Shown here piece by piece: positions 6,160 to 57,299 of a DNA stretch of 57,790 bases. The stretch is taken from contig NZ_JACJQG010000067.1 of assembly GCF_014696435.1 (NCBI RefSeq), positions 1 to 57,790 of the forward strand. The letters are read 5' to 3'. Position 1 is the first letter of the stretch; the number at the start of each line of letters is the position of its first letter. Origin of the DNA: Calothrix anomala FACHB-343. Lineage in GTDB: Bacteria; Cyanobacteriota; Cyanobacteriia; Cyanobacteriales; Nostocaceae. Both the position numbers and the translations under genes were made by a program. The notes beneath the pieces were generated by a model that was given only the letters and a program-made list of their open reading frames with translations, was not told where the DNA came from and did not search any database.

Positions 6160-6573
6160 ATGCATACAACCTATAATCAGCGCCAAATTTGGTTACTTGT
6201 TTTAATAGCCATTAATATATTTGTTTCCATTGTGCATTACACCGATCATATTATTTTCTTTGACGAATATCCAGAAACATCTTTATTTACACCACAAATT
6301 ACACATTCACTTTGGCTAGTTATGACACCCTTATGTATAGCAGGTTATTATCTATATATTAAAAGGGCATTTTTATCAGCATATTTCTGCCTTTATCTCT
6401 ATATTATTATGAGCCAAATAACTTTAGGACAATACATTATTACCCCAATGTGGCATCTATCATTAAAAATGAACACCTTAATTTTATTAGAATCGGTTAG
6501 CGCCATTCCTTTGTTAATTTTTGTTGCCTGGTCGCAACTTTTTCTCAAAGAGTCAACAGTCAATAGTCAGTAG
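6160..6573 (+). CDS. Small four-helix membrane protein of unknown function inside the hyp cluster
   Basis: The protein has 137 residues with four predicted transmembrane segments, near IWLLVLIAINIFVSI, LWLVMTPLCIAGYY, YFCLYLYIIMSQI and LLESVSAIPLLIFVAW. The start at 6160 is preferred to 6118 because GCGGGGA lies 5-11 bases upstream and because the upstream extension overlaps the hairpin at 6101-6125. No family is recognised. The last residues (STVNSQ) are encoded by heptamer repeat DNA, and the TAG stop (6571-6573) belongs to the GTAGGGG arm of the next palindromic element, so the natural 3' end has been overwritten by repeats. Confidence 0.7.
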   Translation: MHTTYNQRQIWLLVLIAINIFVSIVHYTDHIIFFDEYPETSLFTPQITHSLWLVMTPLCIAGYYLYIKRAFLSAYFCLYLYIIMSQITLGQYIITPMWHLSLKMNTLILLESVSAIPLLIFVAWSQLFLKESTVNSQ

Positions 6574-6632
6574 GGGCGGGTTGATTGAAAATCATCGTTG
6601 ATCAGTGAGAATATTTGTGAACCCGCCCGTAC
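6570..6632. repeat. 63-bp palindromic element, GTAGGGGCGGGTT variant
   Basis: The ends GTAGGGGCGGGTT and AACCCGCCCGTAC are complementary with one mismatch and enclose about 37 bases. The length of 63 bp and the terminal GTAGGGGC match the GTAGGGGCACGGCA palindromes found elsewhere in the window, but the inner stem differs. It lies directly between the membrane-protein gene and hypE. Confidence 0.65.
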
Positions 6633-6638
6633 AGTTGT

Positions 6639-6682
6639 TAACAGTCAACCGTCAACAGTCAACAGTCAACCGTCAATAGTCA
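6639..6682. repeat. Heptamer tandem repeat abutting the hypE start
   Basis: About six units of the CAACAGT/CAACCGT/CAATAGT heptamer run right up to the ATG at 6683. The whole ribosome-binding region of hypE is made of repeat and shows no Shine-Dalgarno sequence. Confidence 0.8.
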
Positions 6683-7786
6683 ATGGATTTATCACCAAAT
6701 ACATCCGAACAAAACCCCTTATTTCAAAAGCTAGAAAAAGTTCGCCGTCGCCAAGGTAAAGTACGAGATACTCATATTACTCTCGCACATGGTAGCGGTG
6801 GTAAAGCCATGCGCGATTTAATTGATGAGATATTTGTTAAAAGTTTTGATAATCCCATTCTTTCTCAATTAGAAGACCAAGCTAGTTTTAATTTAGCCCA
6901 TCTCATGTCACAAGGAGATAGACTAGCTTTTACTACAGATTCCTATGTTGTAGATCCGCTATTTTTTCCTGGTAGCGATATTGGTGAATTAGCCGTTAAC
7001 GGTACAGTAAATGATTTAGCCGTGAGTGGTGCTAAACCTTTATATCTTACCTGTAGTGTAATTTTAGAAGAAGGATTACCAACAGAAACCTTACGCCGAG
7101 TAGCTGCTAGTATGCAAGCTGCTGCGAGAAAAGCTGATATTCAAATTGTCACCGGTGACACCAAAGTTGTGCATCGGGGTGCGGCTGATAAATTATTTAT
7201 TAACACTGCTGGGATTGGTGTTATACCTAAAGGAATTGAAATTTCTGCTCAAAAAGTTCAACCAGGAGATGTAGTAATTATTAATGGTGAATTGGGCAAT
7301 CATGGGGCAGCCATTTTAATTGCTAGGGGTGAACTAGCTTTAGATACTGATATTGAAAGTGACTGTCAACCATTGCACAATTTAGTCGCCAATATCCTGA
7401 AAGTTTGTCCAGAAGTTCATGCAATGCGCGATGCTACCAGGGGTGGTTTAGCGACAGTGTTAAATGAATTTGCCCTCAGTTCTAATGTAGGAATTCGCCT
7501 GGATGAAAAATCTATACCTGTACGGGAAGAAGTGAAAGGAGTTTGTGAAATTTTAGGTTTAGATCCTTTATATTTAGCTAATGAAGGTAAGTTAGTAGTC
7601 GTAGTACCAAAAAAATCTGCCGAGGCTGTTTTATCAGCAATGAAATCTCACCCTGCTGGAAAAGATGCAGCAATTATTGCGGAAGTATCAGCTTCACCAC
7701 CAGGGGTAGTTTTATTAAAAACTGTATTTAATGCTGAAAGAATTGTTGATATGTTAGTTGGCGATCAATTACCACGCATTTGTTAA
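6683..7786 (+). CDS. hypE: HypE, thiocyanate-forming hydrogenase maturation enzyme
   Basis: HypE is a PurM/ThiL-like ATPase that dehydrates the carbamoyl group on its C-terminal cysteine to a thiocyanate and donates CN to HypC-HypD. The 367 residues show ITLAHGSGGKAMRDLI near residue 31, FTTDSYVVDPLFFPGSDIG near 92, VTGDTKVV near 158 and DATRGGLATVLNEFA near 250. The essential terminal motif PRIC ends exactly at the stop codon. The start is within a few codons of the expected place, although initiation signals are masked by repeats. Confidence 0.97.
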   Translation: MDLSPNTSEQNPLFQKLEKVRRRQGKVRDTHITLAHGSGGKAMRDLIDEIFVKSFDNPILSQLEDQASFNLAHLMSQGDRLAFTTDSYVVDPLFFPGSDIGELAVNGTVNDLAVSGAKPLYLTCSVILEEGLPTETLRRVAASMQAAARKADIQIVTGDTKVVHRGAADKLFINTAGIGVIPKGIEISAQKVQPGDVVIINGELGNHGAAILIARGELALDTDIESDCQPLHNLVANILKVCPEVHAMRDATRGGLATVLNEFALSSNVGIRLDEKSIPVREEVKGVCEILGLDPLYLANEGKLVVVVPKKSAEAVLSAMKSHPAGKDAAIIAEVSASPPGVVLLKTVFNAERIVDMLVGDQLPRIC

Positions 7787-7840
7787 TGTTTAATATTTAA
7801 TCAGGAGATAATTTCCAAAAAGATAAGCATGAAATGGAAA

Positions 7841-30901: not shown

Positions 30902-31033
30902 TTACAGCAATTTTTACCTATTTGAACCACATCTGTCGTAGGGGCACGGCAACAGTAAAATTATTGTATGTACCAAAAGATTGTCGGTGCCGTGCCCCTA
31001 CAGCGTGGTCTATTTACCTGAAAATAGCTGTAA
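30902..31033. mobile_element. 132-bp palindromic MITE-like element upstream of hyuA
   Basis: It starts TTACAGCAATTTTTACCTA and ends GAAAATAGCTGTAA, with the 64-bp palindrome GTAGGGGCACGGCA...TGCCGTGCCCCTAC in the middle. It is nearly identical to 7841-7974, and its core is almost identical, in inverted orientation, to 39971-40050. It ends 16 bases before the hyuA start codon, so it supplies the hyuA leader. Confidence 0.82.
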
Positions 31034-31049
31034 TTTAGAAAACAATCAA

Positions 31050-33143
31050 ATGTTAAAAATTTTTGCTGATCGCGGTGGGACATTTACAGATATTGTAGCT
31101 GTAACTAACAATCAGGGGATTGTGGAAAGATTATCCAGCCACAGAGAACGTTTTTTGATTGTGCCCCTTCCTCAAAGAGAATGGATTATAGTCTACAAGT
31201 TACTTTCGGAAAATCCAGAACAATATCAAGATGCAGCGATTCAAGGGATTCGGGATATTATCGGTTTGGCTAGGGATGAACCTATCCCCAGTGAGGCAAT
31301 AGAAGTAGTGAAGATGGGAACAACGGTGGCGACAAATGCATTGTTAGAAAGAAAAGGCGATAGAGTTGCACTGTTAATTACCAAAGGTTTTAAAGATGCG
31401 TTGCGCATTGGCTATCAAAACCGTCCAGATATATTTGCGCGTCATATAGTTTTACCGACGATGCTTTACGAACAAGTGATTGAGGTAGAGGAACGTTATG
31501 ATGCTGAGGGTCAAGAATTAACTCCAGTCAATATTGCCCAGGTCAAACAAGACTTAGAAAGATTGTACAGCATGGGGATACGCAGTTGTGCGATCGCGTT
31601 TATGCATAGCGATCGCTATCCGCACCACGAACAACAAGTTCAGCAACTCGCCCAAGAGGTTGGATTTACCCAAATTTCAGTATCTCATGAAGTTAGTCCG
31701 TTAATGAAATTGGTCAGTCGCGGTGATACAACCGTTGTTGATGCTTATCTAACGCCGATTTTGCGACGCTATGTCAACCAAGTAGCGAGTCAGTTACCTG
31801 GGGTGAAATTAATGTTTATGAAATCTGACGGTGGTTTAGTTGCGGCGGATAAATTTCAAGGTAAAGATAGTATTTTAAGCGGCCCGGCTGGGGGAATTGT
31901 TGGTGCGGTACAAACGAGTAAAAGGGCGGGTTTTGACTTAATTATTACCTTTGATATGGGTGGAACAAGTACAGATGTTGCCCATTTTAAAGGAGAATAT
32001 GAACGCCAATTAGATTCAGAAATTGCTGGCGCGAGAATGCGAGTCCCCGTATTAGCGATTAATACCATCGCTGCTGGGGGCGGTTCAATTTTATTTTTTG
32101 ATGGTTCTAGTTATCGTGTCGGCCCGGAATCGGCTGGTTCAAATCCCGGCCCCGCTTGCTATCGCCGTGGTGGGTCTTTAGCGGTGACCGATGCTAATGT
32201 TATGTTAGGTAAAATTTACCCGCAATATTTTCCGGCGGTATTTGGCGTGACGGGGAATTTACCACTAGATAAAGAGATTGTGCTGGAGAAATTTAGCCAA
32301 TTATCCCAAGAAATTGCCACAGCTACAGGTAATTATCGTACACCCGAACAGGTAGCAGCAGGATTTATAGCGATCGCAGTTGAGAATATGGCGAATGCGA
32401 TTAAAAAAATTAGCTTGCAAAGAGGTTATGATGTCAGCCGATATGTGCTTTGTTGTTTTGGTGGTGCTGGCGCACAAGTTGCTTGTTTAATTGCTGAGAC
32501 TTTAGGGATGAAGCAGATTTTTCTCCATCCTTATGCGGGGGTTTTATCAGCTTATGGAATGGGATTAGCTGATGTCCGCGCTATGAGAGAAAAGGGCGTA
32601 GAACAACCTTTAACGGCTGCATTAATTCCCCAATTACAAGAGTTAATGCAGAGTTTGCTGATTCAGGCGAGAAACGAACTCAGCGAGGGAGATATTAGAC
32701 ATGATGAAGTGGTGCAAAAAGTCAATTTAAAATATCAAGGGACTAACTCAATATTGACCATTGATTTTGATACAGATGTAGCGATAATGCAGGCGAAGTT
32801 TGAGGTTGAGCATAAATCGCGTTATGGGTTTGTGCAATTAGAGAAACCCTTAATTGTTGAGTCTGTTTCTGTAGAATTAATTCAGAAAATGGATACACCA
32901 GAGGAATCTTTAATAATTCGCGATCGCTCTTTAGATGAATATCCGCAATCTGTGGAGACTGTGAAGATGTTTGCTGGCGATGAATGGCATGATACACCAG
33001 TTTATCGCCGGGAAGATTTACAGCCTGAAGATATTATTAATGGCCCGGCGATTATTGTGGAGAAAATTAGTACAATTGTCGTAGAACCTAACTGGATAGC
33101 TAGGTTGACTGAATGCAATCATTTGATTTTACAGCATTTATAA
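31050..33143 (+). CDS. hyuA: 5-oxoprolinase/hydantoinase A-type subunit
   Basis: The 697 residues from MLKIFADRGGTFTDIVAV match the ATP-using half of 5-oxoprolinases and the HyuA subunit of hydantoinases, which open cyclic amides such as 5-oxoproline. Signatures: RGGTFTDIV (phosphate loop of the actin-like ATPase fold), GTTVATNALLERKG, SGPAGGIVGA, FDMGGTSTDVA, GPESAGSNPGPACYRRGG and FGGAGAQVACLIAETLG. A TTG start at 30981 would place the leader in the palindromic repeat, so ATG 31050 is chosen. The partner HyuB lies 6.9 kb away on the same strand; in many relatives the two are adjacent or fused. Confidence 0.93.
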   Translation: MLKIFADRGGTFTDIVAVTNNQGIVERLSSHRERFLIVPLPQREWIIVYKLLSENPEQYQDAAIQGIRDIIGLARDEPIPSEAIEVVKMGTTVATNALLERKGDRVALLITKGFKDALRIGYQNRPDIFARHIVLPTMLYEQVIEVEERYDAEGQELTPVNIAQVKQDLERLYSMGIRSCAIAFMHSDRYPHHEQQVQQLAQEVGFTQISVSHEVSPLMKLVSRGDTTVVDAYLTPILRRYVNQVASQLPGVKLMFMKSDGGLVAADKFQGKDSILSGPAGGIVGAVQTSKRAGFDLIITFDMGGTSTDVAHFKGEYERQLDSEIAGARMRVPVLAINTIAAGGGSILFFDGSSYRVGPESAGSNPGPACYRRGGSLAVTDANVMLGKIYPQYFPAVFGVTGNLPLDKEIVLEKFSQLSQEIATATGNYRTPEQVAAGFIAIAVENMANAIKKISLQRGYDVSRYVLCCFGGAGAQVACLIAETLGMKQIFLHPYAGVLSAYGMGLADVRAMREKGVEQPLTAALIPQLQELMQSLLIQARNELSEGDIRHDEVVQKVNLKYQGTNSILTIDFDTDVAIMQAKFEVEHKSRYGFVQLEKPLIVESVSVELIQKMDTPEESLIIRDRSLDEYPQSVETVKMFAGDEWHDTPVYRREDLQPEDIINGPAIIVEKISTIVVEPNWIARLTECNHLILQHL

Positions 33144-34060: not shown

Positions 34061-37000
34061 TTAACATATTGGCAGTTGAATGCAGAACTCGCTACCTTTA
34101 CCTAACTGAGATTGTACTTCTAAACTACCGCCATGCTTTTCTACCACGATTTGCCGAGCGATCGCTAATCCTAAGCCTGTACCTTTACCTACGCCTTTAG
34201 TGGTAAATAAATGGTCGAAGATTCTCGCTTTTATATCTTCGCTCATCCCTTTGCCGTTATCCCGAATCGAGATGAGAACTTGATTTTCTAGCATTGCCGT
34301 GCGAATCGCGATTTTTTGCGGATGGGCGGCTATTTCTTGATATGATTGAGTTTTCGCCATCTCATCGAACATATCAATGGCATTAGCCAGGATATTCATA
34401 AATACCTGATTTAATTGCCCTGGAAAGCATTGTATTGCTGGTAACTCGCCATATTCGGTAATTACTTGAATGGCGGGACGGGAATCATTAGCTTTCAGGC
34501 GATATTTCAAAATCAGTATTGTGCTGTTGATACCTTCGTGCAGGTTAGCTCTGACTTTATACTCAGTATCAGCACGGGAGAAGGTGCGGAGGCTGGTGCT
34601 GATAGACTGAATGCGATCGCTTGCACCTTGCATAGAATTAAGTAACTTTGGTAAATCCTCGCTTAAATATTCTAAATCAATGTCTTGTGCCTTTTCTTGC
34701 ACAGGTGCGGCGGCATCGGGATGATATTGTTGATATAGGGCGATATAGTCGAGTAAATCCTGGACATATTCTTGGGCATTATTAATACTGCCATTCAGGA
34801 AGCCGATGGGATTGTTGATTTCGTGGGCAACACCGGCAACTAAGTTACCCAAAGATGCCATTTTTTCACTCTGGACTATTTGCAGTTGTGATTGTTCTAG
34901 TTTTTGGGCGTAAGTTTGTGCTTTTTGATAAAGTCGGGCATTTTCTAGAGAAATCGCCGCCTGAGTGCAGAGGAAGTTAAGAACGAAAATGCGATCGCTA
35001 GTAAATACTCCACTAGTTGAGCGATTTTTTAAGGATACAATGCCAATTAATTGTCCGTGGCTAATAATTGGCAAGCATAACAAACTCTTTGGTTGTTGAC
35101 GAATAAGATATTCATCTATAACGGGTAAATCTGTTTTGAGATTGTCAATCGTTACGATTTGTTGCGTGTTCTTGACATATTGAATCAATTTTACAGGTAG
35201 ATTGGAATTACCATCGAGTGGTTCTGAACAAAGTTGTGTAGTTTCTGGTGTAGCTATAGCGACAACTTGCCATTCACCCTCAGAATTAGGACAGATTAAA
35301 GCACAGCGATCGCCCCCGGAGTTTTGTAAAATAATTTTTGTGAGTTGATGTAGTAAATCATCAAGTTGCAGAGTGGCAGATAGACTTTGAGAAGCTTTGA
35401 TCATAGTGGCAATATCAATAGCGTTATTGATGTTTGTGCTATGACCTAGGCTAGATTCTGAGGTATTCAGGGAAATATCTTGTGTAATTGTGCTTGTCAA
35501 GCTTTCCCACAGTTTCATGGGTTGGGAAACTGACTGCAGAATCGGACGCAGTAAATGAGGATAGCGATGTTCTAAATCGTTACTTTTTGCTTTCGCTCCC
35601 CAACGAGCATAGCAGTAGTAGGCTTCCTGCATATAGACAGCAGCAATTTTTTCTTTGCCCCAACCAAGGTAGAATTTAGCAGTAAGTTCATTAGCGATCG
35701 CTTGTTCTAGGATATAGCCATTTTCTTGAGCTAAACAAATAGCGCGATCGTAAAAATCAATTGCTTGCTGTGGATGTCCTAAAACACGCTGTTCTTCAGC
35801 ACAAATCAAATCATATCGGTGCTGACAATTCATGGGTGCATAGGTAGCCCAATTTTGCAGCTTTTCTTTAGCATCGGCAATTAATGCCCATAATTCATTT
35901 GGTTGAGAATTTGCTGATAACTGGGTGAAACAGGCTAAAGCTGTATAAAAATACAGTATTGGTACATTTAGCATCCCAGTACCGCCCCCAGCATTCAGCT
36001 TTGCTTGTTGACAATGATAAAATGTCTGGTCATGGCACTCGAATAAATAGGTTAAAGTTACTTTGCACATATGGAAATGCCATAACCCCGTTTTGTCGTT
36101 AGCTTTTTCCAGATTGGCTAAAGTTACCCCTTCATCAAAAATTGTGCCTACTAATTTGGTTGGGTTCTCACATTTTCCTAAGAGATTGGCAACGGTTTGA
36201 TGGACGATATGCAAATAGCCTAAAAGTGCTTGTTGTTTGATGTTTGCCAAGCCTATGCTGTAAGCCTGACATTCTGTTTCTAAGGCTGTAAGTTCTTTAC
36301 CGACAAAATAAGCATGAAAGGCGTAGGTATAACCAGAATAGCCAGCATAAGTAAGAGCGCCAACTTTTAGTCCCAGGGTATAGGCTTCTTGTAATGGTTG
36401 TAGAGTTGTCGCCGCATTTTTCACCCAGTGAACAGTAAACTTGCTGGTCATGTATAAAACTTTAGCAGCATATTCCTGATTATTGAATTTATCTACTAAC
36501 TGTAAAGCCAGTTGACCAAATTCATAACCTGTTTTGATATCACCAACTACACCACAAAGTAATAATCCATAAACCACATATCCAAAGCTGGAGGCGGGAA
36601 TATTACCGTGGGTGACTGATAGCTGCACCTGCTGACAGCAAATTAAAGGATACAGGGATGGAGATGCTAAGTAAGTAGCTCCACTAATCTGGACTAACAT
36701 TCGTAGCAGTGCTTGGAATTGAGGCGAAGTCATCACAGGTAAGTTTAACAGCTCATCTGGAGAACGTCCTGCCAATTGCTGTCGGGTTTGCTGGAGAAAA
36801 TCAGCAAAATCTTGTTTATTCGGCTGACTGGGAAATTCAATCCCAAAAGATTTGAGAAAGTTTAAACCCGTGGTAACAGCTTTGGTAAATTCACCTTGGC
36901 TTGTGTAAGCATCAATTTTAATTTCATACACCTTGGCAGCATCCAACAAATTCCGAGCTTGTTGCAAGACAATTTCCGCCAAAGTTTCCATCTGTGCCAA

Positions 37001-39460
37001 ATCTGTATTCAGATACGCAGCTTCAGCCGCGCTACTATAGCAAGCTAATGCCAAATCATACTGAGTTTGCCAGCTATCAGTCGGCAGTAAATTACAAGCA
37101 TATTTTAAGCAATAGGTGGCAGTATCATAGGCAGTAGTGGCGATCGCTTTTTGTCCGGCTCTTAAATTCAGCTCTACCAGCCTTGCTTGCTCTAGGGTAT
37201 CATTGATGAGCGTACAGCCAATATTCAATTGGTTGACAATATCAAAAATTTGCTCCTCTAATTGTTCTGCAGATGTATGGTTTAATAAGTGACGACCAAT
37301 GCTAAGATGCACAACCTGTTTCTCTTGTTGGGGAATCAGGGAATAAGCAGCTTGCTGGACGCGATCGTGAAGGAATTTGTAAACAACGGTAATTCCATCA
37401 CTGTAGTTATCATTTAAACCATCCCCTTGAAAAAACTTGTAGGTTTCACTGATGGGTAAAATGAATCCTTCCTGTAACCCTTTCCACAAGTCAGTTGCTA
37501 CCTGCTGCGGCAATTTTTCTGAAACGATCGCCAAAGTATTCAAGTCAAATTGATTACCAATACAAGCTGCCAGTTTGAGGATATTCTGAGTCTCATCAGG
37601 TAATTTTTGCAACTGCTTGGCCATGAACTCTACCACATCATTGGTTAATGCAGCCTCGCGTACCTGAGTAATATTACATTGCCAATGTCCAGCCTGGATA
37701 TTAAAGGTAATAAATTGCTCTTGATGCAGAGTTTTGAGAAATTGCGTAGCAAAAAAGGGATTCCCTTGGGTTTTTTGATAGACTAATTCTGCTAGAGGTT
37801 GTGCCAATACCTCAGCACATTTGAGCATATCCGCCACTAATTGATTCAGGCTGGTTCTACTCAAAGATGCTAAGGTAATTCTGTTGATTGTAGCTTTTAC
37901 TTTGCTGACTTCGTTTAAAGTCAGCATTAACGGATGGCCGGGAAATACTTCGTTATCCCGATAAGCCCCAATCAGCAGTAAATACCCCTGTTCCCTCTCA
38001 CTCATCAACAACTGCATCAATTTTAAAGATGCGGCATCTGCCCATTGCAAGTCATCCAAAAACATCACCAAAGGATGTTCTTTTGTCGTAAAAACTTGAG
38101 TAAATTTCTGGAACAGCAAATTAAACCGATTCTGCGCCGCCGTACCCGATAGTTCTGCTACAGGTGGTTGTATACCAAGAATACATTCCAATTCCGGGAT
38201 GACATCAATAATTACTTGGGCATTCTCTCCCAAAGCCTCAAGAATCCTGGCTTTCCACGCTTGTAATTGAGTATCCGATTCTGAAAGCAACTGTCCCATT
38301 AAATCCCGAAAGGCTTGGACAAAGGCAGAGAAGGGGATATTACGATTATACTGGTCAAATTTACCTTTAATAAAATAACCCCGTTGCCGCACAATGGGTT
38401 TATGAACTTCATTGACAACCGCCGTCTTTCCAATTCCAGAGAACCCAGCTACTAGCAGTAATTCTGAGGTACCGTTGCTGACTCGCGCAAAAGCATCTAA
38501 TAGTGTTTGAACTTCTGCTTCTCGTCCATAGAGTTTTTCCGGGATAGAAAAGCGATCGCAAATATCCCGTTGCCCAATGATAAACTGTTGAATATGTCCT
38601 GTTTGCTTTAACTGTTCTAAGCAAATTGCCAAATCGTGCTTTAAGCCTAAAGCACTTTGGTAGCGGTCTTCGGCATTTTTACACATTAACTTAGCGACAA
38701 TTTGCGCGATCGCTTCTGGTATTTGGGAGTTAATTTCGTCTACCCTGGGTGCAGGTTTGGCAATGTGACTATGCACCAGTTCTAAAGGATCGTTACTAGC
38801 AAAAGGTAACTGTCCCGTCAACAATTCAAACAACGTCACACCTAGACTATAAAAGTCTGTACGGTAGTCAACGCCCCGATTCATCCGCCCGGTTTGCTCT
38901 GGTGCAATATAGGCTAATGTGCCTTCTAATACATTAGGGTGCTTGATTTCTTCGTTTTCTTTCGGTAATAGGGAAGCGATACTAAAATCAATTAATTTGA
39001 CTTGTTGCGATTCTGGATGAATCAGAATATTAGCGGGTTTAATGTCTTTATGAATTACCCGATGTTGATAAAGCTCATGGAGAATATCGGCTAGTTGTAG
39101 AGCGATCGCTATTATATCTGATAGTGTTAATTGATGCTTGCGGCTATATGTTGATAGCGCCACACCACCAAAATCTTCCATCACTAGGGCATAGCTATTG
39201 CGATATGGTATCAGGCGATCGGGACGAATCACACCAGAAATATTCAAGTTTTTAGCAATAGTATATTGGTTGCGAAAACGTAACAATTCGCTGAAGCTAG
39301 GATAATCTTGTTGTAGCAATTTGATGACAACCTGACGCTGGCTTAATTCTTCCACTGCTTGATAAACAATCGTCCGAGAACCCACATATAATTGCTCAAC
39401 GATTTTATAGCCAGGAATTTCGGGGAATAGATTTGTGTAGGTGCTTGCCGCCCGTGTCAT
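34061..39460 (-). CDS. Giant Ser/Thr-kinase, AAA ATPase, GAF and histidine-kinase hybrid
   Basis: This is a 1,799-residue signalling protein. Domains: a Ser/Thr kinase (1-275; VVIKLLQQ, HKDIKPANIL, LIDFSIASL, GTLAYIAPEQTGRMNRGVDY); an AAA/STAND-type ATPase (about 300-520; P-loop GFSGIGKTAVV, Walker B VMFLDDLQWAD); a long helical TPR-like region (about 600-1,290); GAF (about 1,380-1,530); a dimerisation domain with GNLVAGVAHEINNPIGF; and an HATPase (NILANAIDM, DNGKGMSE, GTGLGLAIARQIV). Both kinase modules keep their key residues. This architecture is known in filamentous cyanobacteria. The output partner is not encoded next to it. No membrane segment is seen. Confidence 0.95.
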   Translation of the reverse strand: MTRAASTYTNLFPEIPGYKIVEQLYVGSRTIVYQAVEELSQRQVVIKLLQQDYPSFSELLRFRNQYTIAKNLNISGVIRPDRLIPYRNSYALVMEDFGGVALSTYSRKHQLTLSDIIAIALQLADILHELYQHRVIHKDIKPANILIHPESQQVKLIDFSIASLLPKENEEIKHPNVLEGTLAYIAPEQTGRMNRGVDYRTDFYSLGVTLFELLTGQLPFASNDPLELVHSHIAKPAPRVDEINSQIPEAIAQIVAKLMCKNAEDRYQSALGLKHDLAICLEQLKQTGHIQQFIIGQRDICDRFSIPEKLYGREAEVQTLLDAFARVSNGTSELLLVAGFSGIGKTAVVNEVHKPIVRQRGYFIKGKFDQYNRNIPFSAFVQAFRDLMGQLLSESDTQLQAWKARILEALGENAQVIIDVIPELECILGIQPPVAELSGTAAQNRFNLLFQKFTQVFTTKEHPLVMFLDDLQWADAASLKLMQLLMSEREQGYLLLIGAYRDNEVFPGHPLMLTLNEVSKVKATINRITLASLSRTSLNQLVADMLKCAEVLAQPLAELVYQKTQGNPFFATQFLKTLHQEQFITFNIQAGHWQCNITQVREAALTNDVVEFMAKQLQKLPDETQNILKLAACIGNQFDLNTLAIVSEKLPQQVATDLWKGLQEGFILPISETYKFFQGDGLNDNYSDGITVVYKFLHDRVQQAAYSLIPQQEKQVVHLSIGRHLLNHTSAEQLEEQIFDIVNQLNIGCTLINDTLEQARLVELNLRAGQKAIATTAYDTATYCLKYACNLLPTDSWQTQYDLALACYSSAAEAAYLNTDLAQMETLAEIVLQQARNLLDAAKVYEIKIDAYTSQGEFTKAVTTGLNFLKSFGIEFPSQPNKQDFADFLQQTRQQLAGRSPDELLNLPVMTSPQFQALLRMLVQISGATYLASPSLYPLICCQQVQLSVTHGNIPASSFGYVVYGLLLCGVVGDIKTGYEFGQLALQLVDKFNNQEYAAKVLYMTSKFTVHWVKNAATTLQPLQEAYTLGLKVGALTYAGYSGYTYAFHAYFVGKELTALETECQAYSIGLANIKQQALLGYLHIVHQTVANLLGKCENPTKLVGTIFDEGVTLANLEKANDKTGLWHFHMCKVTLTYLFECHDQTFYHCQQAKLNAGGGTGMLNVPILYFYTALACFTQLSANSQPNELWALIADAKEKLQNWATYAPMNCQHRYDLICAEEQRVLGHPQQAIDFYDRAICLAQENGYILEQAIANELTAKFYLGWGKEKIAAVYMQEAYYCYARWGAKAKSNDLEHRYPHLLRPILQSVSQPMKLWESLTSTITQDISLNTSESSLGHSTNINNAIDIATMIKASQSLSATLQLDDLLHQLTKIILQNSGGDRCALICPNSEGEWQVVAIATPETTQLCSEPLDGNSNLPVKLIQYVKNTQQIVTIDNLKTDLPVIDEYLIRQQPKSLLCLPIISHGQLIGIVSLKNRSTSGVFTSDRIFVLNFLCTQAAISLENARLYQKAQTYAQKLEQSQLQIVQSEKMASLGNLVAGVAHEINNPIGFLNGSINNAQEYVQDLLDYIALYQQYHPDAAAPVQEKAQDIDLEYLSEDLPKLLNSMQGASDRIQSISTSLRTFSRADTEYKVRANLHEGINSTILILKYRLKANDSRPAIQVITEYGELPAIQCFPGQLNQVFMNILANAIDMFDEMAKTQSYQEIAAHPQKIAIRTAMLENQVLISIRDNGKGMSEDIKARIFDHLFTTKGVGKGTGLGLAIARQIVVEKHGGSLEVQSQLGKGSEFCIQLPIC

Positions 39461-40076: not shown

Positions 40077-41681
40077 ATGCAACCGATATCTCAACCCGAT
40101 CCAGTACGTTTAGAAATATTTAAAAACCTTTATCAATTTATCGCGGAACAAATGGGAATTGTGCTGCAAAATACAGCAGCATCAGTGAATATCAAAGAAC
40201 GCTTAGATTTTTCCTGCGCTATCTTTGATGAATCTGGATTATTAGTAGCTAATGCTCCTCATATACCTGTACATTTAGGCTCAATGAGTGAAAGTGTCCG
40301 CAGTTTAATTAATGATAAGAGCAATAATATTAAACTGGGAAACGTGTATTTATCAAATAATCCCTATAACGGCGGAACTCACTTACCCGATGTCACAGCC
40401 ATTACCCCTGTATTTTTGGAAAGCGGTGAAAATAATCTTTCCCCCATGCCCAATGCCCAATGCCCAATGCCCCATGCCCAATGCCCAATGCCCATTTTCT
40501 ACGTCGCTTCGCGCGGACATCAAGCAGATATTGGCGGAATTACTCCCGGCTCGATGCCTCCCCATAGTACCACGGTAGCAGAAGAAGGTATTTTATTTGA
40601 TAATTTTTTATTAGTTGAATCGGGTAATTTTCGCGAAACTGCAGTCAGAGAAATTTTAGCCAATCATCCCTATCCGGCGCGTAATCCCGACCAAAATATT
40701 GCTGATTTTCAAGCTCAAATTGCCGCTAATGAACGGGGAGTACAAGAACTCCGCAAGATGGTTGAGCAATATGGATTAGAAACTGTACAAGCTTACATGA
40801 AATTTGTCCAAAATAATGCAGAAGAGGCAGTAAGAAGGGCAATTTCTGTCCTCAAAGATGGGGAATTTATCTATGAAATGGATAGCGGCGCTAAAATTCA
40901 AGTTAAAGTCACAATTAACAGAGAAAATCGCAGTGCAATTATTGATTTTACTGGCACATCTGCCCAATTAAACAGTAATTTTAATGCCCCTAAAGCCGTT
41001 ACCCAAGCCGCAGTTTTATATGTCTTCCGAACTTTAGTTGATGATAATATTCCCCTAAATGCTGGATGTTTAAAACCTTTAGAAATTATTGTGCCTGAAG
41101 GTTGTATGCTCAATCCTACCTACCCAGCCGCAGTAGTAGCGGGTAATGTAGAGACATCCCAGACTATTGTTGATGCTTTATATGGTGCCTTAAGTGCGAT
41201 CGCAGCTTCTCAAGGAACCATGAATAATTTTACCTTTGGCAATCAACGCTATCAATATTATGAAACCATTTGCGGTGGTTCTGGTGCAGGCGCTAACTTT
41301 CATGGTACTGATGCAGTTCACACCCACATGACAAACTCCCGCCTAACTGACCCAGAAGTTTTAGAAACCCGCTATCCTGTATTGGTAGAAAGCTTTAGTC
41401 TGCGTCCTGATAGCGGTGGTAAAGGAAAGTATTCCGGTGGTAATGGCGTGATTCGTCGCATCAAGTTTTTAGAACCGATGACAGCGAATATTCTTTCTAA
41501 TCATCGCCGTGTTTCTCCCTTTGGCTTAAATGGTGGGGAACCGGGAAAAGTTGGATGCAACTGGATACAGCGTCAGGATGGAACGCAAGAAGAGTTAGAT
41601 AGTACTGCAACTGTTGAGATGGAAGTGGGAGATGTTTTTGTGATAGAAACACCAGGGGGAGGGGGTTTTGGTGATAGCTAA
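40077..41681 (+). CDS. hyuB: 5-oxoprolinase/hydantoinase B-type subunit
   Basis: This 534-residue protein begins MQPISQPDPVRLEIFKNLYQ and carries HyuB signatures: SVNIKERLDFSCAIFD, HIPVHLGSMSESV, NPYNGGTHLPDV, RGHQADIGGITPGSMPP, ETSQTIVDALYGAL and RPDSGGKGKYSGGNGVIR. It ends in the usual glycine-rich TPGGGGFGDS. With HyuA it forms the ATP-dependent amidohydrolase. A repeat-derived insert sits at residues about 122-140 (see entry 40441). The TAA stop lies at the edge of a repeat unit. Upstream DNA to 40050 is palindromic repeat, so hyuB must rely on its own promoter or on one carried by the repeat. Confidence 0.93.
   Translation: MQPISQPDPVRLEIFKNLYQFIAEQMGIVLQNTAASVNIKERLDFSCAIFDESGLLVANAPHIPVHLGSMSESVRSLINDKSNNIKLGNVYLSNNPYNGGTHLPDVTAITPVFLESGENNLSPMPNAQCPMPHAQCPMPIFYVASRGHQADIGGITPGSMPPHSTTVAEEGILFDNFLLVESGNFRETAVREILANHPYPARNPDQNIADFQAQIAANERGVQELRKMVEQYGLETVQAYMKFVQNNAEEAVRRAISVLKDGEFIYEMDSGAKIQVKVTINRENRSAIIDFTGTSAQLNSNFNAPKAVTQAAVLYVFRTLVDDNIPLNAGCLKPLEIIVPEGCMLNPTYPAAVVAGNVETSQTIVDALYGALSAIAASQGTMNNFTFGNQRYQYYETICGGSGAGANFHGTDAVHTHMTNSRLTDPEVLETRYPVLVESFSLRPDSGGKGKYSGGNGVIRRIKFLEPMTANILSNHRRVSPFGLNGGEPGKVGCNWIQRQDGTQEELDSTATVEMEVGDVFVIETPGGGGFGDS
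40441..40495 (+). repeat. CCCAATGC-type tandem repeat inserted in frame within hyuB
   Basis: Seven to eight units of CCCAATG/CCCCATG encode MPNAQCPMPHAQCPMP between VFLESGENN and FYVASRGHQADIGG, which should be close together in HyuB proteins. The same repeat type is intergenic at 281-302 and 11219-11232. It adds about 18 residues without breaking the frame. Confidence 0.82.
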
Positions 41682-50142: not shown

Positions 50143-52410
50143 ATGTATAAATTCCAGGTTATTGCATACACACAAGCGGGTGAATCTATTGCTCTAGTGG
50201 GTTCTACTCCTGAATTGGGATTGTGGGATATTAGCAAATGTATTCGCCTTTGCACAAGTAGCGATCGCTATCCTTTATGGTGGACAGAGACAGAAATCGA
50301 TATTCAGCCATCTTTACCATCTAGGGAACAGCCGCAGGTGGAATATAAGTATGTCTGTCTCGATAGCAAAGGTAATGGGCGATGGGAGGCTTTAGGCGCA
50401 AATCGTTGGCTACCGCTCAACTCTGATAAGCAGTCTGGTACTATAGTTGTAGATGATGGCGCTTTTGGTTATTTGCAGCCTTACCCCTTTGGTTTTATTG
50501 AACAGTCTGCTGTTAAGAAGCCTTTAGAATCAGGTGATGCAGGTTTAAAAATTGTCGTTATTGGCAGTTCTGTAGCTGTAGGTCATAGAGCTTGGTTGTT
50601 AGAAGGTTGGGTTTGGCAATTAGAACAGGCTTTATCGGCAAAATACGGACACAGACTGGTAAATGTCTCTGAGGTAGGAGCGAATGTCAGCAGAACCATC
50701 GCTCGATTTGCTTCAGCAGTCACCCCAGAACAACCAGATATTGTGATTATTGCTTTGTCTTTGGGGAACGAAGGGTTAGCTTACTGTCCCCCTCACGAAC
50801 GGCGCGCGGTACAGCGACGCTTTGAAAGCGGCTTACAGCAGCTGGTGAAAATGACGCGCGCATTGGGAGCAATTCCCATTCTCGGCGGAGTTTATCCCAA
50901 TAATGACTATAATTCAGAACATCACTGGCTGTTGCAAGATACCCACAACCGGATGTTGAATTGGGGTGTGCCTATAATCGATTGGTTAGCATTACTAGAT
51001 AACGGACAGGGACGCTGGCGAAAAGGGATATCCTTCGATCCAGCTCATCCTAACACTATTGGTCATCGCCTGATGTATCAAGGGATCGACTTGAATTTGT
51101 TTCAAATTGACAAAGACGAACTCGCCAAACAAAAGCAACGTTTTTGGCAACCAGATGAAGTACCGATTTATCTTGACAATGCAGGGTTTTATGTCTGTGC
51201 TTCTATTGAGGAGAAGCGTTTGCGAATCGTTAATCCTTCAAAATATAGCTATACCATTGCTCCCTATTGGCAAGAACTGCAAACTGTACTGCAAAGTAAA
51301 GCCGGATTGATTCCAGGAATCTACATTGCCAAAAATCCCCAGAAAGGAACGCTTCCCTTTTTTGCAGTGCCGGAAGATGGCGCGATCGCTACTTTGGTAG
51401 AAATTCCCCCTGGTGCTGAGGTAGAATATGTGGCGGCGTTTAATCTGTTTGCGCCCAACAACGCCCAAGTTTTATTTTATGACGGACATCTGGGACTTTT
51501 GCAAGCCGACGAGCAGCAATTGTGGGCGATCAATGAATCAGATCATGAGTATAATATTCAACCCATGTGGCAGGAGGTACGGAGCGCCCTCAAAGCTCTG
51601 CCAACGGGTGTTTATGAAGACCCTCTACATCCCGATATTCCTTTCCGGACAATGATGATTGGCAATTACGGGTTAGAAAGTCGGGTAAAAATACCAGCTA
51701 AATCGGCTGTATTATTTCAATATAAATGTAAATTATCAGACATCAGCCGTGTAGGGATAATTCCCCTGGGCGATCGCTGTGCTGTACGGATGATGTTGTA
51801 TAAAATGGAGTATGATGGCCCCGCTTTTCCCTTTGATTTAACGCGCACTACCAAAATTGCAGATATTGCAGATATCATCGAAAATCGCTTTGCTGATATG
51901 TGGAATCCAAGCTTTCTGCATTACAATCCAGAAGCAGGTAGAATTTACCACAGCAAATGGACGGGTTTATCCTTTGCCCATGAAGTTGAGGATACAGACG
52001 ATCCTGTAAATAATATGTCTCCCGTTCATGGAAGAATGCGCGATCGCTACCAGGCGCGATCGCAAAGATTTTGGTATAGTATTGAAAATTGCGACCAAGT
52101 GCTTTTCGTCCGTACAGGAATTAGCGATCGCGCTGGAGCGATGGATTTACTAAATAAGTTAGAAAAGCATTGTCAGGGTAAGCCATTTCAGTTACTCCTG
52201 CTTTCTCCCCAAGCTAGCGATGAGTTTTTAGGACTACCTCGCCTGCTGCATTATAATGTAGAGTTCAATCCCGATCGCATGTATGATGACTTGGGACATT
52301 GGCTATATTGCACAGAAGTAATGCGGGGAATTCTGGAATCTATTGGTGTTTCTAGCAAAAATCTCTTTTGGTGTCCGCCAAATCCTCCAAAGGATAAGTT
52401 GAAAGGTTAG
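50143..52410 (+). CDS. CBM20 / SGNH-hydrolase / DUF1796 papain-like fusion protein
   Basis: This 755-residue protein has three recognisable parts. Residues 1-110 resemble a CBM20 starch-binding domain (VIAYTQAGESIALVGSTPEL, GLWD, YKYVCLD). Residues about 125-325 are an SGNH/GDSL hydrolase with nucleophile block IGSSVAVGHRAW, LGNEG and the acid-base block DPAHPNTIGH. Two related modules of about 85 residues follow (near 340-430 and 447-527; YTIAPYWQELQTVL and YNIQPMWQEVRSAL). Residues about 532-745 match the DUF1796 papain-like family (IIPLGDRCAVRMMLYK with the candidate Cys, FPFDLTRTT, MSPVHGRMRDRY with the candidate His). No signal peptide is seen. Role unknown: perhaps deacylation or processing of glycan-bound esters. 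Confidence 0.8.
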   Translation: MYKFQVIAYTQAGESIALVGSTPELGLWDISKCIRLCTSSDRYPLWWTETEIDIQPSLPSREQPQVEYKYVCLDSKGNGRWEALGANRWLPLNSDKQSGTIVVDDGAFGYLQPYPFGFIEQSAVKKPLESGDAGLKIVVIGSSVAVGHRAWLLEGWVWQLEQALSAKYGHRLVNVSEVGANVSRTIARFASAVTPEQPDIVIIALSLGNEGLAYCPPHERRAVQRRFESGLQQLVKMTRALGAIPILGGVYPNNDYNSEHHWLLQDTHNRMLNWGVPIIDWLALLDNGQGRWRKGISFDPAHPNTIGHRLMYQGIDLNLFQIDKDELAKQKQRFWQPDEVPIYLDNAGFYVCASIEEKRLRIVNPSKYSYTIAPYWQELQTVLQSKAGLIPGIYIAKNPQKGTLPFFAVPEDGAIATLVEIPPGAEVEYVAAFNLFAPNNAQVLFYDGHLGLLQADEQQLWAINESDHEYNIQPMWQEVRSALKALPTGVYEDPLHPDIPFRTMMIGNYGLESRVKIPAKSAVLFQYKCKLSDISRVGIIPLGDRCAVRMMLYKMEYDGPAFPFDLTRTTKIADIADIIENRFADMWNPSFLHYNPEAGRIYHSKWTGLSFAHEVEDTDDPVNNMSPVHGRMRDRYQARSQRFWYSIENCDQVLFVRTGISDRAGAMDLLNKLEKHCQGKPFQLLLLSPQASDEFLGLPRLLHYNVEFNPDRMYDDLGHWLYCTEVMRGILESIGVSSKNLFWCPPNPPKDKLKG

Positions 52411-54311: not shown

Positions 54312-57299
54312 TCACCAACTGACAACTAACAACTGACACGCGCAGCGCGATAAAAAATCTTTCGCCAACTGTTCTACAGTATCGCTTGTACAATCAGCAT
54401 TAAGATGCAAGCCTAACACTAAACGCGCTGTATTCTCCATCTTTTGCACACCCGTCCAAGGTCTGACAAATATCCCAAGTTGCTCAAGCTGAATAATCAA
54501 ACCAATAATGTAGCCTTCTAAAATACCGCAGCATTTTTCTAGCTCATGCTCATCTCGATCGCTCACCTTTAATATCAAGAAAATTTCTGATTCTTGGTGT
54601 AAATCAATTGGCGCAAATAAAGTTGTCCATTTCTCCTCATCTGCTAAAATTCGCTTAGTCAATGTTGCGCCTCTAGCAAATTCACTTTGGATTATCTTGG
54701 CAGTAGAACGGGTGACATTACGAGCAGTATTTTGAAATGGTTCTATTGATGTAATTACAGGTAGCCAGTCTCTCGGTAGTTGTACCTGATATTGTCTACC
54801 AAAATCTGTAAGTGCGATCGCTTGTTGCCAATCACGATGATGCAAAAGTTGAAAAAAATTAGCCAGTAATTTCTCTCTGCTTGGTTCTACTTCTTTGTCA
54901 AATGTACAACAAAAAGCACAAAGTAACGCCCAAGAGAAACCACCAAGAAAACCCCAAGCATTGCCATAAATCTTTCTAGCTTTAGCCCAGGCGCGTACTG
55001 CTCGCAATAACTCACGAAAGGTGTTTAGAGAGACATATTTACTAACTATCTCAGTAATTACATCTGCTTCCCAACAACCAATAATAGCTTTTAAGCTAAT
55101 TGAGTCAAGGTTTTGCGGATGTTTTCTCGCCAATTGATAGTTTTCTGCTCGTGCGTAAAGTAAATCTAAGGATATTCCCTCTAATTTTAGGCGCAGTATT
55201 GGTACTCGTGCATCTAATACTAGTTGAGTGTGACACAATCCTTGTAACCGTTGTTGAACGCTAACTAAAAACGCTTCCCCAGTTAGATAAGTGGGAATTA
55301 CACACACAGCATCCAAATCGCTATCGGGACTTTGCACCCCAAGACGCGCCGAACCCAATAACTGCAATGATGTTTGAAAACCCAAACATTCTGCACAAGC
55401 TTGAGTCACCACTTCTAACACCGTATCGCGCTGTAATTGCTGTGCTGGAGTTAATTCCGGTTCCAGTTCCTTAATCAACTCCCCTAATTCACTTCCCCCC
55501 TTCCCTCCCTTGTCCTCCTTGTCCCCCTTGTCCTCCCTGTCCCCCTTCCCTTGTCCCAAATACACAAGATGTCTCACTTCAAAAGGCTCATCACCGCGAC
55601 GGCTAATTAAGGCGATAGAGTCAACTGTAAAACTAACTGGATGCCATTCTGGTAACTCAGCAAACGCTGCTTCCGGGCTGGGGAATTGTCCGACGCTGAG
55701 GTGGGGTGTAAAACCTGCTTTTGTTTTGCTGCTTTGTTCGTTACATTGGGGAAACAGATTTTCCAGTATCGTCTGTAACTCATGTAATGCGGTTTCTGGC
55801 TCGACAACAGGACGCAACCATGCTGTAGAACTTTTACGGTGTGTAAATGTTTGGAAGTCGGCTAAGGTAATTTGAAATGGTTGTAGTTGAGCAAGTACAG
55901 GTGCAATAATTTCTACCGCTTCGGCAAAATAAGATTCTGGTAGAAAACCGTAGAGTAAATTAATATGAGCCATCCAACGCTCTACTCTGGCATCATAACG
56001 CTCACGAATCGCTTGGATAGCAGGTAAAACATTGTCTGGTGGAATTACAACTACAGCACTTTGATAAACTGGGCGCACTGTACTTAATGCCGAACTTAAT
56101 GGAGAAGCTGGAAAAGACTTGGCAAATTTTAGAACTGCACGAATACCAAAATGATCGGATGGATAAATTTTCTCTTCTGTATCTGCTATGGGTTCACAAG
56201 CGAACAAGTCAATTGACTGTGGTTGCCAATCATGGTTTGGACTTCGTAGTAAAATGCGATCGAGTCTAACTGGTATTCCCTTTAAACTCATCAAGGCTGC
56301 TAAGGTGTTGTGTTGGGGGTCAAATGTATAACCTGCTGCATCTGGATGTAGTTTTTCCCAGATATCAACACATCCTGCACCGGTTAATATGTCTTGTTGT
56401 TCGTTACCTCGCGTATTAAAATCACCAGCTATTAAGCTATTTCCCGGTAGCTTTTGCAGATATGCAATGATGGTAGCTAGTTGATGCTGACGTTTTTCTA
56501 AAGCATTTTGCGCGTAGTCGCTGGTTAAATGTACAACTGCAACGTGCAATAATTGACCGTTAATTTGATAACTTCCTACCAATACCCGCTTGTGTCCAGA
56601 AAATTGATGCTCAACGAGTGTAAAAGGCAGACGCGACAATAATAAATTACCGTAAGGTCGCACTGTTGCGGCTGCACTGTTATCGGAGATGTAATAATTA
56701 CGCACCCAATTTTGTGATAAAAGTAACTCTATCAAAGGTGGTGTAGCTTCTTGAATAGCGATAATATCCGCATTACATTGACGTAATTGCTCAACAATTG
56801 CTGGTAATCTTTTTTCTGTAGCAATTTTCTCCTTTTCGTAGAGGTCGCAAAGCACGTTAAAACTAGCGATCGCCAAATTGTCTAATTTGACATCCGCGGC
56901 TTTTTGTGTATCTGCTTGCCAACCTTGGATATCGTATTTATAAACTGGTCGCGGAGTGAATATTGCTGTGCTATTTAATATAGTGACAACGTTCTCCCCT
57001 AAATTTTCTCTAGTCTCGCTTTTCCAAGCCGCCGCAGGTAATTCTCCAGAGGAAATTAAATCTAAATATTGTTCTCGATCCCAAACAACCACATCTTGAC
57101 AACGGATATAGCGGATGCGGTGAAATGGAATATCTCCATCTGTCGTCCATTGTGCGAGAGGTTTTTCTCGGATTCCTGTAGATGAAAGACGTTCTTGATA
57201 ACCGACTATAAAAGCGCTGCTATCAAGACGCACATCCCAGATAATGCGATGGTAAACTTCGCGACTGGTTGCCATTTTTTTCTTTTCTGATTTTGACAT
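54312..57299 (-). CDS. Multidomain RNA-end repair protein: MJ1316 domain, EEP nuclease, 2H phosphoesterase, poly(A)-polymerase-like
   Basis: The protein has 995 residues. Residues about 12-90 (YHRIIWDVRLDSSAFIVGYQ, ISSGELPAAAWKS nearby, IPFHRIRYIR) match the MJ1316/DUF504 RNA cyclic-phosphate-end recognition domain. About 125-365 is an endonuclease/exonuclease/phosphatase fold (IASFNVLCDL, IIAIQEATP, AGDFNTRG, SDHFGIRAVL). About 385-565 is a 2H-type ligase/phosphoesterase (HINLLYGF and HLSVGQF). From about 610 there is a nucleotidyltransferase (LLGSARLGVQSPDSDLDAV) with the poly(A)-polymerase central motif NAWGFLGGFSWALL and an RNA-binding-like tail. A lysine/glycine-rich repeat insert joins the last two parts. 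A second Met at residue 9 is an alternative start. Confidence 0.85.
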   Translation of the reverse strand: MSKSEKKKMATSREVYHRIIWDVRLDSSAFIVGYQERLSSTGIREKPLAQWTTDGDIPFHRIRYIRCQDVVVWDREQYLDLISSGELPAAAWKSETRENLGENVVTILNSTAIFTPRPVYKYDIQGWQADTQKAADVKLDNLAIASFNVLCDLYEKEKIATEKRLPAIVEQLRQCNADIIAIQEATPPLIELLLSQNWVRNYYISDNSAAATVRPYGNLLLSRLPFTLVEHQFSGHKRVLVGSYQINGQLLHVAVVHLTSDYAQNALEKRQHQLATIIAYLQKLPGNSLIAGDFNTRGNEQQDILTGAGCVDIWEKLHPDAAGYTFDPQHNTLAALMSLKGIPVRLDRILLRSPNHDWQPQSIDLFACEPIADTEEKIYPSDHFGIRAVLKFAKSFPASPLSSALSTVRPVYQSAVVVIPPDNVLPAIQAIRERYDARVERWMAHINLLYGFLPESYFAEAVEIIAPVLAQLQPFQITLADFQTFTHRKSSTAWLRPVVEPETALHELQTILENLFPQCNEQSSKTKAGFTPHLSVGQFPSPEAAFAELPEWHPVSFTVDSIALISRRGDEPFEVRHLVYLGQGKGDREDKGDKEDKGGKGGSELGELIKELEPELTPAQQLQRDTVLEVVTQACAECLGFQTSLQLLGSARLGVQSPDSDLDAVCVIPTYLTGEAFLVSVQQRLQGLCHTQLVLDARVPILRLKLEGISLDLLYARAENYQLARKHPQNLDSISLKAIIGCWEADVITEIVSKYVSLNTFRELLRAVRAWAKARKIYGNAWGFLGGFSWALLCAFCCTFDKEVEPSREKLLANFFQLLHHRDWQQAIALTDFGRQYQVQLPRDWLPVITSIEPFQNTARNVTRSTAKIIQSEFARGATLTKRILADEEKWTTLFAPIDLHQESEIFLILKVSDRDEHELEKCCGILEGYIIGLIIQLEQLGIFVRPWTGVQKMENTARLVLGLHLNADCTSDTVEQLAKDFLSRCACQLLVVSW
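55497..55556 (-). repeat. GTCCCCCTTGTCCTCC-type repeat inserted in frame within the RNA-repair gene
   Basis: Tandem CCTTGTCC/CCCTTGTCC units encode GKGDREDKGDKEDKGGKGG between the 2H domain and the nucleotidyltransferase. The same repeat occurs between genes at about 11301-11335 and 52,605-52,622. It provides a charged, flexible linker. Confidence 0.85.

Follow-up and report, generated by a model that had tools for sequence, protein, structure and literature searches.

The stretch of DNA analysed here, referred to as the window in the following, comprises the 57,790 nucleotides of positions 1 to 57,790 of contig NZ_JACJQG010000067.1 from the cyanobacterium Calothrix anomala FACHB-343 (assembly GCF_014696435.1; 9.24 Mb in 144 contigs). 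At positions 54312..57299, on the minus strand, it carries a gene for a protein of 995 residues, which an earlier note, made from the letters alone, had described as a single chain with an MJ1316 domain, an endonuclease/exonuclease/phosphatase (EEP) domain, a 2H phosphoesterase and a nucleotidyltransferase (NTase). This description is borne out by an intact frame from ATG to stop and by profile searches for each domain: the Pfam matches follow in the order MJ1316, EEP, 2H, PAP_NTPase and PAP_central, the latter two named after poly(A) polymerase (PAP), and each lies above its curated cut-off. The plus-strand frame over the same positions is riddled with stops, so that the open reading frame exists on the minus strand only. 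The contig ends 491 bases upstream of the gene start, and the nearest named relatives of the gene are found in Nostoc and Calothrix records.

All parts of the protein are encoded on the minus strand. The N-terminal MJ1316 domain (residues 9–75, 57075..57275; PF04457, 70.5 bits against a cut-off of 26.3), a proposed reader of RNA cyclic-phosphate ends, is followed by the EEP domain (residues 145–383, 56151..56867; PF03372, 54.0 bits, cut-off 24.5) and the 2H domain (residues 420–571, 55587..56042; PF13563, 2_5_RNA_ligase2, 120.9 bits, cut-off 27). A poorly conserved low-complexity linker (residues 583–603, 55491..55553) then leads to the NTase palm (residues 617–723, 55131..55451; PF20750 above and PF22600 below its cut-off), which holds G649-S650, D661, D663 and D712 and within which residues 647–723 match PAP_NTPase (37.6 bits, cut-off 27). 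The PAP central domain (residues 760–896, 54612..55022; PF04928, 97.1 bits, cut-off 27.1) includes Y778, N780 and the GFLGGFSWALL motif pointed out in the earlier note. The C-terminal part (residues 897–985, 54345..54611) may make up the rest of a PAP RNA-binding domain; the PAP-like RNA-binding tail that the note had described finds partial support in a 28-row profile of relatives, whose alignment to the PAP chain 1f5a extends to 1f5a residue 484, and none in Pfam, where no RNA-binding family matched the window protein. A search of NCBIfam with the protein gave sub-threshold matches only, and an AlphaFold model built from an 8-row alignment had a mean pLDDT of 29.8 and was therefore not used.

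The 28 rows (alignment A1) are the window protein, 24 other cyanobacterial and three actinomycete proteins, collected as frames of at least 900 residues that match the window protein, with the frame of L037 added separately (L numbers denote loci and G numbers genomes in the following). We left out L010, a frame of 902 residues that ends at an in-frame stop, seven short, cut or interrupted frames of 133–558 residues (L011, L085, L086, L097, L098, L104 and L105), and L094, which could not be told apart from L096 by its match to the window protein. MJ1316, EEP, 2H and PAP_central are matched in all 28 rows (E<=0.001 for MJ1316), a common architecture that is partly selected, because the rows were picked for their length; among the 24 MJ1316 loci in a draw of 388 genomes of the order, window included, 18 have a frame of more than 900 residues.

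Far from being lost in most domains, the catalytic residues are retained throughout the alignment. In the EEP domain, N148, E184, H257, D293, N295, D382 and H383, which we take to represent the Asn/Glu/Asp/His active-site set of the EEP superfamily, are invariant in 28/28 rows, and an alignment with TDP2 supports the positions in the C-terminal half of the domain. G649, S650, D661, D663 and D712 of the NTase are likewise invariant in every row. Of the two 2H catalytic histidines, H533 is present in all rows and H445 in 27, with a gap in L044; the second 2H motif has its S/T in 28/28. Genome G003 has two copies of the gene; in one of them, L044 (6185-9040), about 60 residues of the 2H domain are missing, the first catalytic histidine among them, and this row was nevertheless retained in A1.

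Each domain is under purifying selection. For eight Nostoc-clade sequences (28 pairs, of which 27 could be used for the C-terminus and 22 for the second linker), the median ratio of non-synonymous to synonymous substitution rates (dN/dS) is 0.18 for MJ1316, 0.20 for EEP, 0.14 for 2H, 0.20 for the palm, 0.27 for PAP central and 0.32 for the C-terminus, compared with 0.42 and 0.74 for the two linkers, the latter value belonging to residues 583–603. Since 28 sequences have all four families and the domains have lower dN/dS than the linkers, the 995-residue frame is no chance frame.

The polymerase module is of a kind that the note had called eukaryote-like and unusual for a bacterium. The best matches of the whole window protein in the PDB are canonical PAPs (E=1e-38 to 4e-32), entries that we take to come from yeast, mammals and fission yeast (1fa0 and 2hhp presumably from yeast, 1f5a from cattle). 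When only the last 368 residues were searched, uridylyltransferase 1 and Poly(A) RNA polymerase protein 2 came up no better than E=0.055-0.085; with the 28-row profile, canonical PAPs reach 4e-64, a uridylyltransferase 6e-9 and CdnC 6e-4, and among the 40 matches listed at E<=0.01 none is by name a CCA-adding or bacterial poly(A) polymerase chain. PF01743, the family of the bacterial enzymes, is absent from the Pfam matches of the window protein, which were listed up to E=1; above about 0.1, the HMMER filters drop most matches. The window genome has two separate PF01743 genes, and BLASTP of the window protein against the product of one of them gave nothing better than E=4.9. We thus reject an ordinary bacterial CCA/PcnB enzyme, given the missing PF01743 match and the lack of similarity to the PF01743 protein of the same genome that was compared. 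Judged by its sequence matches, the NTase is closest to the canonical eukaryotic PAPs, with no such match to the bacterial CCA/PAP family.

Correspondingly, D661, D663 and D712 align with D100, D102 and D154 of yeast PAP, R769 with K215, Y778 with Y224 and N780 with N226 (numbers counted from the alignment; the roles of the yeast residues are presumed here). N780 is kept in all 25 cyanobacterial rows and replaced by A in the three actinomycete rows, while the Y778 site has Y in 15, H in 10 and D in 3 rows, the last being the actinomycete ones. Because these two sites vary, the choice of nucleotide may differ among relatives.

Within the order, PAP_central occurs in 22 of the 388 genomes, 21 of which are also among the 24 with MJ1316. 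In 19 of them both lie on the same open frame, and in G490 and G527 they lie on different contigs. This eukaryote-type PAP is therefore near-exclusively associated with MJ1316 in the order, and its rarity supports the view that the module is unusual. The 22nd genome has only a 38-position piece (G366:C10:16209-16322) and no MJ1316 match, and may hold a decayed copy.

The neighbourhood of the gene in other genomes provides a functional context that the earlier note had missed. Seven of the 24 MJ1316 loci have two genes upstream on the same strand, an RNA_ligase gene followed by a kinase gene with HD and AAA_33 domains: G006 (L007), G409 (L089), G387 (L092), G631 (L101), G605 (L102), G362 (L090), where the ligase frame starts late, and G397 (L095), where a small frame separates ligase and kinase. 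The same order is seen in L008, from a Nostoc genome outside the draw. The families were named from L007 and L008, and the other loci were assigned by BLASTP to L007. The kinase alone adjoins in L091, where the contig ends and a ligase stands at the start of another contig, and in L105, where the four-domain gene is missing its central part and the kinase frame is broken up; in L099, a ligase-kinase pair lies about 5 kb away on the same contig, on the other strand. The corresponding genes of the window genome carry the KVDG ligase and HD motifs. At E<=1e-40, the ligase is found in 20/24 MJ1316-positive genomes and in 35/364 negative ones (Fisher p=2.5e-15).

A counterpart with a different ligase exists in actinomycetes. 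In two Embleya copies and one Nonomuraea copy, the preceding gene fuses this ligase to a kinase and overlaps the four-domain gene by 1-4 bases, depending on the start chosen. RNA_ligase and AAA_33 were identified in the fusion of L039, with which the other two share 79% and 71% identity. In a genus search, the ligase part of the Embleya query was matched in 9/9 genomes (E ~5e-5 to 6e-4) and the four-domain protein in 8/9. The P-loop of the Embleya fusion kinase reads GKST.

A further RNA-related gene was seen near two cyanobacterial copies: just downstream, on the other strand, two Nostoc genomes have an ankyrin-repeat protein and the RNA 2'-phosphotransferase KptA/Tpt1, the latter two genes away from the four-domain gene (L004 11150-13505; L044 9266-11697).

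The published syntax of RNA repair offers a frame for these observations. In the passages concerned, metal-independent nucleases leave 2',3'-cyclic phosphates, which 2H enzymes open, kinases and phosphatases heal the ends, and ATP-grasp ligases seal them (PMC7824862, PMC9503650), while for template-independent NTases such as RlaP the prediction is that they replace missing bases ahead of ligation (PMC7824862). MJ1316 itself is said to recognise RNA 2',3'-cyclic ends (PMC6514570, in a passage citing Burroughs and Aravind 2016).

We consider it quite likely that the four-domain protein serves a pathway that repairs RNA breaks, as the arm that heals and rebuilds 3' ends. Because some relatives of its gene adjoin RNA ligase and kinase genes, its probable role is to rebuild broken RNA ends ahead of rejoining. 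The MJ1316 domain would hold an RNA with a 2',3'-cyclic phosphate at its end, this phosphate would be opened by the 2H domain, and the EEP domain would remove the leftover phosphate or trim damaged nucleotides, leaving a clean 3'-OH to which the canonical-type PAP domain could add nucleotides back without a template. A separate HD-polynucleotide kinase would phosphorylate the 5'-OH, its HD part perhaps sharing in the cleaning of 3' ends, and the RNA ligase would seal the break. The window protein would thereby unite the 3'-side functions in one chain, with a PAP standing in for RlaP, and the rest would come from the partner genes. The idea of the note that damaged 3' ends are trimmed and re-extended in one pass is in part sustained, by the conserved active sites and the eukaryotic-type PAP; given the RNA ligase and HD kinase genes, it widens into a break-repair pathway. 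We infer the order of the steps and their completion in one pass, as well as the substrates, the nucleotides that the PAP would add and cleaved cellular RNA, such as tRNA, as a plausible target. What the EEP domain removes is the weakest step, for which trimming or phosphate removal fits the context better than a TDP2-like role.

A number of observations weigh against this reading. Regarding the linkage, 14 of the 24 MJ1316 loci have no ligase or kinase match in the stretch examined, some of them being cut by contig ends, and in the window genome the ligase-kinase pair is found on another contig, C116 (L058), not adjoining the gene. Four of the 24 MJ1316 genomes have no ligase at the cut-off used, in G514 the match is a partial one, and the Fisher statistic ignores the relatedness of the genomes. 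In the tree, operon rows fall into several branches (L090 with L092; L101 and L102 with L089 and L095, fork support 91/90; L007 and L008); the operon could be one old linkage that was partly lost. As such a linkage with later losses explains the tree, we do not count the seven operon loci as independent origins.

Regarding the enzymes, the P-loop of the HD-kinase (L058 5615-6898 and alignment A4) reads GKD or GKN in 7/7 rows, the usual P-loop being GKS/T. The usual 2H signature is HxT/S in both motifs; two positions after H445, 21 of the 27 rows, the window protein among them, have N and 6 have T. In two actinomycete pairs, the dN/dS of palm and PAP central is 0.40-0.53, a sign of weaker constraint there. 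The nearest solved relative of the EEP domain is TDP2 (E=1.6e-10). HD kinases may clean 3' ends themselves, so that 2H and EEP would be partly redundant. For the operon of an HD kinase and a ligase in Deinococcus, the study concerned could not attribute the 3'-phosphatase activity to the HD domain and saw no joining of DNA by the ligase (PMC1997131).

Among the alternatives, a general enzyme of mRNA 3'-tailing and decay survives best, though we think it unlikely. Here, the PAP would add A-tails that mark RNA for decay, and the EEP domain would be a deadenylase; in its favour, the weaker matches of the EEP part include the CCR4-type deadenylase CNOT6L (E=9e-6), and N780, the equivalent of yeast N226, is invariant in the cyanobacterial rows. 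A 2022 review could be read in the same direction, as it describes cyanobacteria, in the passage on this point, as having no poly(A) polymerase homologues, with PNPase as the likely sole tailing enzyme (PMC10989914), a statement qualified by the 22 genomes with PAP_central, one of them with the 38-position piece. Such a narrow distribution is unlike that of a core decay factor, and the co-occurrence of the four-domain gene with the ligase, along with its linkage to ligase and kinase in 7/24 loci, speaks for repair. Moreover, we know of no role for 2H or MJ1316 in tailing.

Still less probable, in our view, is a nucleotide-signalling function, in which the NTase would make 2',5'-oligoadenylate (2-5A)-like or cyclic oligonucleotides and the 2H and EEP domains would erase them. 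Both families do include enzymes that degrade 2-5A, and the PAP_central part weakly matches the CBASS cyclase NF041116 (E=3e-7; 29.9 bits against a cut-off of 200), with further weak matches to the PADLOC family Cyclase (E=5.9e-6) and to CdnC (E=6e-4). The match to canonical PAPs, at E=1e-38, is much stronger; the ligase and kinase of the window genome have no PADLOC family and the Embleya ligase-kinase only mads_3 (E=0.006); and synthesis and erasure in the same chain would be futile without control. Highly improbable, finally, is a TDP2-like repair of protein-linked nucleic acid rather than of RNA cuts, with the EEP domain freeing RNA or DNA 5' ends from covalently bound protein: in the PDB, the EEP part matches TDP2 best, yet TDP2 is simply the nearest solved EEP, its E-value does not fix the substrate, and RNA ends are indicated by the remaining three domains and by the linked ligase and kinase.

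If RNA-break repair is indeed the function, a more far-reaching version of it would be that bacteria of two phyla run a full RNA gap repair, in which the ends are cleaned, lost 3' nucleotides are rebuilt template-free by a eukaryote-type PAP and the strand is religated, perhaps leaving A-scars. This version is possible, and we rather doubt it. If true, it would place canonical eukaryotic PAP chemistry in bacterial RNA repair instead of mRNA tailing. On the main reading, the repair of RNA breaks would gain a step in which a eukaryote-type polymerase adds nucleotides, and the end-reading role proposed for MJ1316 could be put to the test in cyanobacteria.

The distribution of the gene is patchy. 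Of 339 genomes drawn evenly from the phylum, two had an MJ1316 match. The non-cyanobacterial genomes came from plasmid records and from 14 control genomes of the family searches, so that the actinomycete counts are not a survey. Seven plasmid records match the window protein, none of them from Deinococcus. Calothrix brevissima NIES-22 has an intact copy (L005) on a plasmid typed as conjugative. This patchy pattern, the plasmid copies and the broken copies fit a mobile, condition-dependent repair function, which we infer from them.

Several copies are broken or reduced. The chromosomal copy of C. brevissima NIES-22 (L010 8001-11015) is split by an in-frame stop, and the gene in L098 (5497-10269) is interrupted after about residue 558, with an open reading frame between the pieces (6482-7792) that looks transposase-like by eye. 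MJ1316-2H proteins without EEP and PAP occur on a Streptomyces plasmid (L040 3995-4858) and in a cyanobacterium (L104 2603-3583), and the match of a second plasmid record covers the same range as that of L040; L085 has MJ1316 alone. Two other affiliations were considered and rejected. A phage or viral origin found no match among phage records; when viral contigs were searched with the single protein, no pattern matched, and of 49 stretches that matched a pattern in the search with alignment A1, none was confirmed; as for a known defence system, the window protein gave only the weak PADLOC Cyclase match.

Elsewhere in the window, two further proteins of unusual composition are encoded. One, of 755 residues (50143-52410), has a starch-binding CBM20 domain together with a GDSL esterase and a papain-like DUF1796 domain. 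The other, of 1799 residues (34061-39460), combines a Ser/Thr kinase with AAA_16, GAF and histidine-kinase ATPase domains, and its gene lies between those for hydantoinase A and B (30981-33143 and 40077-41681), on the opposite strand.

Part of this picture is already known. The passage cited above for MJ1316 also reports its fusion to RNA-repair domains across eukaryotic lineages (PMC6514570, citing Burroughs and Aravind 2016), and Burroughs and Aravind 2016 may already list bacterial four-domain chains. In the full-text literature searched, which does not extend to subscription papers, we found neither a description of this bacterial four-domain chain nor the term DUF504, and the term MJ1316 occurred in two papers. 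New are the operon link to ligase and kinase in cyanobacteria, the actinomycete counterpart with a different ligase, the spread over two phyla, the test of the active sites at the residue level and the near-exclusive association of a eukaryote-type PAP with MJ1316 in the order.

Compared with known systems, the window protein resembles the published MJ1316-fusion repair systems in that MJ1316 is joined to RNA-repair domains, the fusions described in that source being eukaryotic (PMC6514570). Likewise, it resembles RlaP, the RNA-ligase-associated Pol-beta NTase, in being an NTase that accompanies RNA ligases and a predicted restorer of bases, but its NTase is of the PAP family and sits within a four-domain chain (PMC7824862, in the part on RlaP). 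The cyanobacterial partner genes recall the Deinococcus HD-polynucleotide kinase DRB0098, which is described as standing in an operon with an ATP-dependent ligase homologue; there as here, an HD and P-loop kinase goes with a ligase homologue, whereas the cyanobacterial pair can precede a four-domain gene (PMC1997131, in the sections concerned). With the canonical eukaryotic PAP, finally, the window protein shares the GS...DxD...D triad, the central domain, perhaps part of the C-terminal domain and, in Y778 and N780, the equivalents of Y224 and N226, sites at which the three actinomycete rows have D and A; unlike that enzyme, its PAP sits behind three RNA-end domains, and in a bacterium.

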